A DNA stretch of 64,000 nt from Candidatus Saccharimonadota bacterium (GTDB lineage: Bacteria; Patescibacteriota; Saccharimonadia; Saccharimonadales; Saccharimonadaceae): assembly GCA_028286365.1 (NCBI GenBank), contig JAQBRR010000001.1, positions 1 to 64,000 of the forward strand, written 5' to 3'. Positions within the stretch are counted from its first letter, which is position 1, and each line of letters begins with the position of its first letter. Positions 22,385-24,522 of the stretch are shown here, one piece after another. The position numbers were made by a program, and so were the translations under genes. The notes below the pieces were generated by a model. It saw only the letters and a program-made list of their open reading frames with translations. It did not search any database and had not been told where the DNA came from.

Positions 22385-24196
22385 CTATAGCTTCTGTAGA
22401 TATGTAGCCAGCTCGTCGAGTTTAAACTTCTCTTCGCCAGATTGAGTCCGAACGCTAACTTCTCTATTGTCTTTATCTTGTTGTCCGATAATTAGCTGCA
22501 CGGGAATTTTCCAGGTTGTAGCTTCGCGAATTTTCTTGCCTAACGACTCGTTACGATCATCTAAACTGTATCGAATTTCGTTATACTTCACAGGTTTCAT
22601 TAGTGTTAGCCCGTCTAGAACGGCCTTAACCTCGTCAACATAATCGAGGACCGTATCGTTAATCGTTAGGATGCGAATCTGTTCGGGCGCAACCCAGAAC
22701 GGGAACCAACCAGCGGTGTGCTCGATAAAGACGCTCAGGAAGCGCTCAATCGAGCCCAAGAGTGCACAGTGGATCATCACAGGTGTTTGGGCATTACCTT
22801 CCCCGTCCGTGTACTGCAAACCGAAACGACCTGGCTGTACAAAGTCGAGCTGGACCGTTGCTACTTGATGCTCACGACCAATCGCATCGGTCGCCATAAA
22901 GTCGATCTTAGGACCGTAAAAGGCAGCTTCACCATCTTGCTCAAAGTAATCTAATTCATTTGCCACAACTGCAGCCTTTAATTGTTCTTGGGCAGAATCC
23001 CACAGTGATTGCTCACCAAGATATCCATCACCACCGTCGCGGTATGACAACCTGACACGTAAGTTCATGTCGATCGTGCTATATAGTTCGCGTGCACTCG
23101 CGAGTAGGTTGTTGATCTCGGTCTCGATCTGATCAGGACGACAAAATACGTGGCTATCGTCCTGCGTCAGCGAACGAACACGGTTCAAGCCACCTAATTC
23201 ACCCGTTTTTTCATCACGGTAATCAGTAGTCGTTTCCAGGTACCTAATCGGCATATCACGGTAACTCCGTGGGCGACTAGCATATATCTGTGTGTGGTGC
23301 GGACAGTTCATTGGCTTTAAGGCCATTTTGTCGTCTGTTTCCTGACTTGTAACGAGGAATAGTTCGTCGCCAAATTTAGCCCAGTGGCCAGATGTCTCAT
23401 ATAGGTCAGTCTTGGTAATGTGCGGCGTCCATACTTTCTGGAACCCAAACCCTAGACGTAACTGATTAGAATAGCTTGCAAACAAGTCGCGCAGAATCGT
23501 CCCACGTGGCGTAAATAGCGGCAAGCCCGCACCAACCAGTTGAGAAACCGTATAGATATCAAGTTCTTTGCCCAAGCGTCGGTGATCGCGTAGTTTGGCT
23601 TGTTCTAGCATCTCAAGGTGCTGGTCTAATTCCTCCTGAGTCGCAAATGCGACACCGTAGAGACGCTGCATTTGAGGGTTCTTCTCGTTACCTCGCCAAT
23701 AAGCGCCAGCGACGCGAAGTAACTTGAATACGCCGACGTCCTTGGTGTTTGCAACGTGTGGACCACGACACAGATCGACAAAATTACCATTTTTGTAAAA
23801 TGATACGTTTTCAATTGCTGATTTGCCATCAGTCGCTAGCCCTAGTTCGCTCAAATCTAAGTCCTTAGCGACGGTCGTACCAGAGCGCTTCAGGTCGTTT
23901 AATAATTCCTCTTTGTATGGCTGCTTGTTCTGTTTAGCCCAATCAATTGCCTGATCTATCGGCATCTCAAATCTCTCAAAGTCATCACCATAGCCAATGA
24001 TGCCACGCATTTCCTTTTCAATCTTGGGAAAGTTCGCTTCTGATATCTTGATTTCACCTAGGTCAATATCGTAGTAAAACCCATTTTCAACCACTGGACC
24101 GACACCAAACTTAGCCTCCGGCCACAGGCGTTGCACTGCAGCAGCCGTGATATGTGCGAGGCTGTGCCTCATTGCGTGTAATTGTTCGTCGTTCAT
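22385..24196 (-). CDS. thrS: Threonyl-tRNA synthetase lacking the N-terminal TGS domain
   Basis: This 603-residue class II synthetase starts directly in the editing (N2) domain: H11 and H15 of HSLAH and the later CRGPH are the editing-site motifs. The ~60-residue N1/TGS domain of usual ThrRS is absent. The catalytic domain keeps the zinc ligands (Cys in MNCPHH, His in DDSHVF, His in MIHCALLGS), motif 2 (TTDYRDEKTGELGGL) and the C-terminal anticodon domain. The ribosome binding site is AAAGGAG. A leader with a T-box-like antiterminator and a terminator precedes it, suggesting control by uncharged tRNA-Thr. First gene of thrS-atl-miaA. Confidence 0.95.
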   Translation of the reverse strand: MNDEQLHAMRHSLAHITAAAVQRLWPEAKFGVGPVVENGFYYDIDLGEIKISEANFPKIEKEMRGIIGYGDDFERFEMPIDQAIDWAKQNKQPYKEELLNDLKRSGTTVAKDLDLSELGLATDGKSAIENVSFYKNGNFVDLCRGPHVANTKDVGVFKLLRVAGAYWRGNEKNPQMQRLYGVAFATQEELDQHLEMLEQAKLRDHRRLGKELDIYTVSQLVGAGLPLFTPRGTILRDLFASYSNQLRLGFGFQKVWTPHITKTDLYETSGHWAKFGDELFLVTSQETDDKMALKPMNCPHHTQIYASRPRSYRDMPIRYLETTTDYRDEKTGELGGLNRVRSLTQDDSHVFCRPDQIETEINNLLASARELYSTIDMNLRVRLSYRDGGDGYLGEQSLWDSAQEQLKAAVVANELDYFEQDGEAAFYGPKIDFMATDAIGREHQVATVQLDFVQPGRFGLQYTDGEGNAQTPVMIHCALLGSIERFLSVFIEHTAGWFPFWVAPEQIRILTINDTVLDYVDEVKAVLDGLTLMKPVKYNEIRYSLDDRNESLGKKIREATTWKIPVQLIIGQQDKDNREVSVRTQSGEEKFKLDELATYLQKL

Positions 24197-24216
24197 ATCG
24201 TTACTCCTTTTGGTAA

Positions 24217-24383
24217 ATAAAAAACATGCGATGACTAGGTTTAAATCACTTTAAATCTATATATCGCATGTCTCGGGTCCACTGTTTAGGTAGACGGTTC
24301 CACCGGACTTTTACTTGTGAGAGACGTTTCGTACATCTACACGCCCACGGAACTCGGCAGATGGTTGGGCTGCGTCATCGTTC
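24217..24383 (-). promoter_or_regulatory. T-box-like riboswitch leader of thrS
   Basis: In the minus-strand RNA the bulge UGGAACC (24296-24302) is flanked by helix A1, GUCCGG (24303-24308) with CCG-A-GAC (24270-24276), and helix A2, GUCUAC (24290-24295) with GUGGAC (24277-24282), closed by a 7-nt loop. That is the architecture of a T-box antiterminator, and UGGNACC is its invariant core. An intrinsic terminator follows (arms 24224-24232 and 24263-24271, then a U-run), sharing two bases with A1. ACG, a Thr codon, occurs twice in the probable stem I internal loop (24325-24327, 24330-24332). Stem I itself is short and not classical. Confidence 0.65.
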
Positions 24384-24389
24384 AAACTT

Positions 24390-24395
24390 ATAATA
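24390..24395 (-). promoter_or_regulatory. Probable -10 box of the thrS leader
   Basis: TATTAT on the minus strand, about 190 nt upstream of thrS. The -35 at 17 bases (GGGGTG) is poor, so the start near 24383 is tentative. Confidence 0.45.
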
Positions 24396-24445: not shown

Positions 24446-24522
24446 GGGTCCTTAGCTCATTTGGCTAGAGCGCCTCATTGACGTTGAGGAGGTGAGAGGT
24501 TCGAATCCTCTAGGACCCACCA
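24446..24522 (+). tRNA. tRNA-Val(GAC)
   Basis: The acceptor GGGTCCT pairs with AGGACCC, the anticodon stem CCTCA/TGAGG holds the loop TTGACGT with anticodon GAC, the T loop is GTTCGAATC, and CCA is encoded. It is followed by a hairpin at 24532-24552. Confidence 0.96.

Follow-up and report, generated by a model that had tools for sequence, protein, structure and literature searches.

A minimal T-box-type leader upstream of thrS in Candidatus Saccharibacteria, very probably sensing the charging of tRNA-Thr(GGU)

The DNA analysed here, referred to throughout as the window, comprises positions 1-64,000 of the forward strand of contig JAQBRR010000001.1 (assembly GCA_028286365.1, Candidatus Saccharimonadota bacterium). 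On its minus strand, thrS is preceded by a T-box element running from 24383 to 24219 (Table 1), which measures about 114 nt without its terminator. An earlier, sequence-only reading had recognised a tRNA-sensing T-box leader at this place, and comparison with relatives bears it out in kind, some of its details being wrong; the extent that it gave, 24217-24395, has to be divided, the element itself beginning at 24383 and the -10 box reaching up to 24395. A gene for tRNA-Val(GAC) (24446-24522, plus strand) lies head-to-head with the leader, and a tRNA gene is found at the corresponding place in many relatives.

Table 1. Features of the thrS leader and its surroundings (positions in the window)
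Feature	Position	Strand	Basis
Probable extended -10 promoter element, TATTAT	24390..24395	minus	sequence; -10-like hexamers in relatives
Stem I base helix P1a, 5' strand GAAC	24380..24383	minus	4/4 pairs with 24350-24353; covariation
Kink-turn, 5' side GAU-GA-C	24374..24379	minus	NNN-GA / GA signature; Rfam alignment of L184
P1b, 5' strand GCAG	24370..24373	minus	covariation with 24357-24360
Apical specifier loop of 9 nt, CCCAACCAU	24361..24369	minus	nearly always 9 nt, form NNY[A/C]ACNRN
Thr specifier codon ACC, next base a purine	24363..24365	minus	65 full-length sequences
P1b 3' strand, kink-turn GA, P1a 3' strand	24350..24360	minus	Stem I search; covariation
H-type pseudoknot, putative equivalent of Stem IIA/B	24322..24349	minus	P2a/P2b pair counts; F-box position
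P2a	CGU 24349-24347 with ACG 24332-24330	minus	pair counts
P2b	AGAUG 24338-24334 with CGUCU 24326-24322	minus	pair counts
Linker CUCACAAGUAAAA, place of a Stem III hairpin in some relatives	24309..24321	minus	leader comparison
Antiterminator	24270..24308	minus	A1 24308-24303 with 24276-24270; A2 24295-24290 with 24282-24277
T-box bulge UGGAACC, its UGGA complementing the tRNA-Thr UCCA end	24296..24302	minus	sequence; tRNA-Thr ends; relatives
Intrinsic terminator, GAGACAUGCGAU...AUCGCAUGU plus U-run	24219..24274	minus	fold, -18.9 kcal/mol; 64/64 relatives
Shine-Dalgarno AGGAG of thrS, outside the terminator	24204..24208	minus	sequence
thrS, threonine--tRNA ligase, the regulated gene	22385..24196	minus	TIGR00418 equivalog, 599.5 bits (cut-off 383.65)

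The comparison draws on 80 thrS loci of named genomes, most of them from Candidatus Saccharibacteria. One alignment (A4) holds the window and 65 loci matching a covariance model, and is fitted to that model, such that counts taken from it lean towards the model; two others (A2, of window-type leaders, and A3) are not so fitted, and covariation of the window type was assessed on a MAFFT alignment. The covariance models are home-made, so that their E-values are rough, and numbers of sequences do not equal numbers of independent events. Against the model built from relatives the window scores 122.9 bits (E about 1e-26), well beyond chance, being itself one of the 15 seeds, and relatives outside the seed reach 112.7 bits. 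Of 295 Saccharimonadia genomes, 115 are matched by this model, each of them once; a second model, drawn from more distant relatives, matches 37 of 380 Patescibacteria, among which 20 lie outside Saccharimonadia. No thrS locus yielded a second copy of the element at E<=1. Among 65 whole-genome loci chosen from model matches, 57 have a thrS gene in the same stretch as well, and those without it include a chance-level match in the window's own genome, here called the host genome (L122, E=4), and three that are short or cut by a contig end (L163, L165 and L168); in L157 (no thrS match in the stretch), L166 and L167 the element stands upstream of ileS and carries the bulge UGGUACC. Roughly one in five of the 80 thrS loci has no match, in some cases because the contig ends there. 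One relative, strain TM7i, has in addition a LOOT RNA (RF03000, above gathering; L027:2015-2141) some 0.7 kb upstream of its thrS T-box.

Stem I spans 34 nt and is built from P1a (4 bp), a kink-turn signature (three nucleotides, GA and one nucleotide, facing one nucleotide and GA), P1b (4 bp) and the apical loop. In the window-type relatives every pair of both helices shows compensatory changes (4/4 and 4/4) with 100% pairing, none of 500 shuffles reaches the observed pairing or covariation score of the whole structure, and sliding the partner strand by one column lowers pairing from 97% to 33-37%. A second group of relatives gives the same result, the outer half of P1a being weaker, and RNAalifold, run unguided on A2, returns the same Stem I together with the antiterminator helices A1 and A2. 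Covariation in Stem I, the pseudoknot and the antiterminator, whose absence from relatives had been named beforehand as grounds for giving up the T-box reading, is strong. The NNN-GA / GA signature, flanked by good helices, recurs in about 60 leaders, a frequency that is no independent measure since the search itself imposed the signature; it does, however, match the base of canonical T-box Stem I when a relative (L184) is aligned to the Rfam T-box model RF00230, and we take it that a kink-turn is likely to form here as at the base of other T-boxes. The sequence-only reading had called Stem I short and non-classical, and very short it is; it is nonetheless complete. A -10-like hexamer precedes Stem I by 3-9 nt in 57 of 64 relatives (by 6-7 nt in 48), which argues that Stem I is not the tail of a longer structure, and the position of the -10 element in the window would place the transcription start close to the 5' end of Stem I. 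A generic promoter scan returned no -35/-10 pair.

Across the 65 full-length copies from thrS loci, the specifier reads ACC in 53, ACU in six and ACG in six, always with a purine next (a count that omits one ACCG entry from a contig-end fragment row). Within the loop, the A and C hold fixed places, the third base is free and the preceding base may be either A or C, which leaves the threonine box ACN as the constant reading; in 65/65 it encodes the amino acid of the gene that follows. It had been suggested that the specifier is ACG, read by tRNA-Thr(CGU); at the invariant position the window instead has ACC, for which tRNA-Thr(GGU) is the reader. Two further candidates fall away: the ACG within GAUGACG lies in the kink-turn and P1b and differs from one relative to another, and AAC becomes CAC in that frame in relatives, whereas ACN is constant.

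Directly behind Stem I, after 0-1 nt and with no stem in between, begins an H-type pseudoknot, from which we conclude that Stem II is missing. Both of its helices show compensatory changes, P2b varying in length among relatives. In the RF00230 alignment of L184, GCCGUUA coincides with the model's F-box (CCGUUA), while the kink-turn falls on the base of Stem I, and on these grounds the pseudoknot would be the equivalent of Stem IIA/B. A partner-swap test on P2b also favours the pseudoknot, to which we give no weight, as the register had been picked on the same sequence and the test is biased. On alignment A3, RNAalifold did not return the pseudoknot helix and proposed a small local hairpin instead; pseudoknots lie beyond the scope of RNAalifold and RNAfold. 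Relatives differ further downstream, some having a Stem III hairpin and others a few As in its place. Taken together, the element appears to be a T-box without the distal Stem I motif that contacts the tRNA elbow and without the whole of Stem II.

The antiterminator is as the sequence-only reading had it, with A1 (GUCCGG/CCG(A)GAC) of 6 bp and one bulged A, a 7-nt bulge UGGAACC, and A2 (GUCUAC/GUGGAC) of 6 bp closed by the 7-nt loop CUAAACA. A1 is nearly invariant within the window-type group, where its support accordingly comes from conservation rather than covariation; across groups its second pair switches, UA becoming CG. In around a third of the relatives (L066, L071, L074, L075 and a GCCAAGG group) AA or GA facing GA takes the place of the C-G pair and bulged A of A1, and this may be a tandem sheared G-A pair. 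Conservation of UGGNACC in relatives, also asked for in advance, is found in the form UGGAACC in 61 of 66 aligned rows and UGGAACA in four more, the one remaining row being a contig-end fragment without a match. UGGAACA was seen in L006, L028, L064, L080 and L170, and the last position of the bulge is thus not invariant. The host genome has tRNA-Thr with anticodons GGU, UGU and CGU; the first of these, encoded elsewhere in the genome, can form three Watson-Crick pairs with ACC. All three carry U73 and end in UCCA, and hence fit the UGGA of the bulge, the variable base of which complements their discriminator; among the listed tRNAs, U73 occurs only in those for Thr, Lys and Cys.

As claimed, an intrinsic terminator follows and then the thrS ribosome binding site, and the position of the latter outside the terminator suggests that control should be transcriptional. 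The 5' arm of the terminator reuses GAGAC of the antiterminator, so that the two compete for about 5 nt if pairs with the U-tract are counted, and not for two bases as had been thought; formation of the antiterminator would undo the terminator's lowest pairs, those beside the U-run. A U-run terminator overlaps the antiterminator in all 64 relatives with enough sequence, its predicted hairpin drawing on the 7-nt A1 3' arm for five nucleotides in 61 and for 3-4 in the other three. RNAfold, which had been proposed as a check on the leader, prefers this same terminator state for the whole leader (-49.5 kcal/mol, against -44.0 with the antiterminator forced). At the level of sequence, antiterminator and terminator are predicted to exclude each other upstream of an amino-acid-related gene, as expected of a T-box.

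Structure, conservation, the match to codon and discriminator and this mutual exclusion can all be read from the aligned sequences; binding of tRNA, sensitivity to its charging and read-through are what we infer from them, in the form of the following model. The nascent leader would present ACC, in a short Stem I built on a kink-turn, to the anticodon of tRNA-Thr(GGU), and the adjoining pseudoknot may hold this contact in place. An uncharged tRNA could pair through its free UCCA end with the UGGA of the bulge and lock the antiterminator, which would withhold GAGAC from the terminator and let RNA polymerase read into thrS. With a charged tRNA the terminator, which in the full leader is the more stable state by about 5.5 kcal/mol, would form and thrS would not be transcribed. 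We regard it as very probable that the leader is a transcriptional T-box riboswitch sensing the charging of tRNA-Thr(GGU).

A terminator and an antiterminator are also what leader-peptide attenuation would use, with ribosomes stalling on a short Thr-rich ORF to decide between the structures. Yet the minus-strand ORF that overlaps the leader has no run of threonine codons, what is conserved is RNA structure, maintained through compensatory changes, and the -10 boxes, 6-7 nt ahead of Stem I in most relatives, leave no room for an upstream ribosome site; we give this explanation next to no credence. The reduced build of the element might instead be taken for that of a degenerate or passive relic, in which the structure persists and tRNA sensing has been lost, all the more as the missing elbow motif and Stem II strengthen tRNA binding in the T-boxes that have been studied (PMC7583486, PMC10482949). 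Such a relic seems extremely unlikely, given that the specifier, the UGGA bulge, both antiterminator helices and the terminator overlap persist, with compensatory changes, in about 65 relatives from several families and orders and in some other patescibacterial classes as well.

The T-box reading gains a built-in control from sister elements of other Patescibacteria, found with RF00230 or with the present models, in which specifier and discriminator match appear to change together with the gene. Ahead of ileS (L206, L208, L212, L157, L166 and L167) the loop has AUC and the bulge UGGU; ahead of aspS (L211) these are GAC and UGGC, and ahead of valS (L213 and L216) GUC and UGGU. The host genome's tRNA-Asp and tRNA-Val carry G73 and A73, respectively, as the bulges UGGC and UGGU require. 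The ileS identity of L157, L166 and L167 was assigned by eye from a conserved N-terminal sequence, and the genes of the other six (L206, L208, L212, L211, L213 and L216) were named by NCBIfam. This concerted change also bears on a different kind of attenuation, in which ThrRS or another factor binds a tRNA-like leader and controls the terminator. In E. coli, thrS is autoregulated by its own protein, ThrRS acting on its own mRNA, and a hairpin that displays a threonine codon in its loop might pass for a mimic of an anticodon arm. The loop, however, holds the codon ACN and no threonine anticodon, and so complements tRNA-Thr rather than mimicking it, and a protein-binding leader would leave the UGGN bulge, the F-box-like pseudoknot and the antiterminator unexplained, as it would the changes in the sister elements; we consider it very unlikely.

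A check of the leader against RF00230 had been recommended, and here the outcome was negative: an Rfam scan of the region yields no T-box, RF00230 matches neither the window leader nor the host genome up to E<=10, and at the gathering score (93 bits) the model finds nothing in 19 thrS loci. The null results in the region, the leader and the host genome at first pointed away from a T-box and were overruled by the comparative data; homologous elements elsewhere are matched below threshold (L184 at E=4.6e-9, L178 at E=1.6e-4), and the failure is one of detection, not a biological criterion. It does stand on the side against the T-box reading, along with the near-invariance of A1, the fifth or so of loci that are unmatched, and the absence of the elbow motif and Stem II. 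T-boxes proper are common in other Patescibacteria, RF00230 matching 96 of 287 sampled genomes at E<=0.01 and exceeding its gathering score in nine, from which it follows that some patescibacterial T-boxes are probably already annotated in databases. The sequence-only reading had known of no described example in Saccharibacteria, and this agrees with the open-licence literature, in which we found no description of a T-box from Saccharibacteria, Patescibacteria or the Candidate Phyla Radiation (CPR), yet T-boxes prove common across Patescibacteria. A survey from 2008 lists T-boxes in five phyla, mainly Firmicutes, in a table without patescibacterial genomes (PMC2494555).

A 2023 paper distinguishes four classes of T-box by the architecture of Stems I and II (PMC10482949). 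Stem I is long in class I, which also has Stem II, and in the glycine-specific class II, which lacks it; class III combines a short Stem I, whose specifier loop has 5-6 nt, with a required Stem II, and class IV has an intermediate Stem I. The closest likeness of the thrS element is perhaps best drawn feature by feature. With class III (Nocardia farcinica and Mycobacterium ileS; PMC10482949) it shares a short Stem I without the elbow-binding motif, a specifier in the apical loop, a kink-turn, a Stem IIA/B pseudoknot and a discriminator domain with a UGGN bulge, but its loop has 9 nt, the Stem II with S-turn that class III needs is absent with no stem intervening, its specificity is for Thr, and it has a transcription terminator where class III is mostly translational. 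With class II (B. subtilis glyQS; PMC10482949) it has in common the lack of Stem II and transcription termination, whereas glyQS is glycine-specific, has a long Stem I with elbow motif in contrast to a minimal one, and replaces the Stem II domain by a single-stranded linker, while the thrS element has the pseudoknot. With class I (B. subtilis tyrS, Firmicutes thrS; RF00230) go the kink-turn at the base of Stem I, an F-box-like pseudoknot, the UGGN bulge, the terminator and an aminoacyl-tRNA synthetase as target; at about 114 nt, with a Stem I of 34 nt, no distal Stem I, elbow-binding motif or Stem II, and RF00230-negative in the host genome, it fails as a member. Nor does it belong to class IV, which has an intermediate Stem I with the specifier in a side bulge. 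Nearer at hand, the patescibacterial ileS, aspS and valS T-boxes (L206, L208, L212, L211 and L216) likewise have a short Stem I with an apical specifier, a kink-turn-like signature, a pseudoknot and a terminator, differing in an extra stem with AGUA/GAA S-turn-like strands and in the bulge, UGGU or UGGC.

With its truncated Stem I and no Stem II, the thrS element fits the definition of a T-box and none of the four classes, and seems smaller and simpler than any class described. We think it likely, from this comparison of architectures, that it represents a fifth class: a minimal transcriptional tRNA sensor of about 114 nt, without elbow-binding motif or Stem II, in which a 9-nt loop, a kink-turn and an abutting pseudoknot would suffice for tRNA-Thr, and which is distributed in Saccharibacteria and some other Patescibacteria. 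This would extend tRNA-sensing regulation to the CPR, organisms that depend on hosts for nutrients and whose gene regulation is almost unstudied; the find also indicates that surveys based on Rfam overlook a whole set of T-boxes, and a naturally minimal T-box would make the contacts really needed for tRNA recognition directly testable.

Other leaders met along the way deserve a brief description. The Saccharimonadia ileS leaders (L157, L166, L167, L206, L208 and L212) have a short Stem I with apical AUC and a stem with AGUA/GAA S-turn-like strands, followed by a pseudoknot, UGGUACC and then intrinsic terminators, which would amount to a class III-like architecture with transcriptional output, class III being mostly translational. 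Rfam-type T-boxes (L186-L205 and L211-L225) stand before ileS, valS and aspS and, as judged by eye, before tyrS, proS, argS, argG and trpB; with up to seven per genome (G301 and G331), the CPR repertoire is sizeable.
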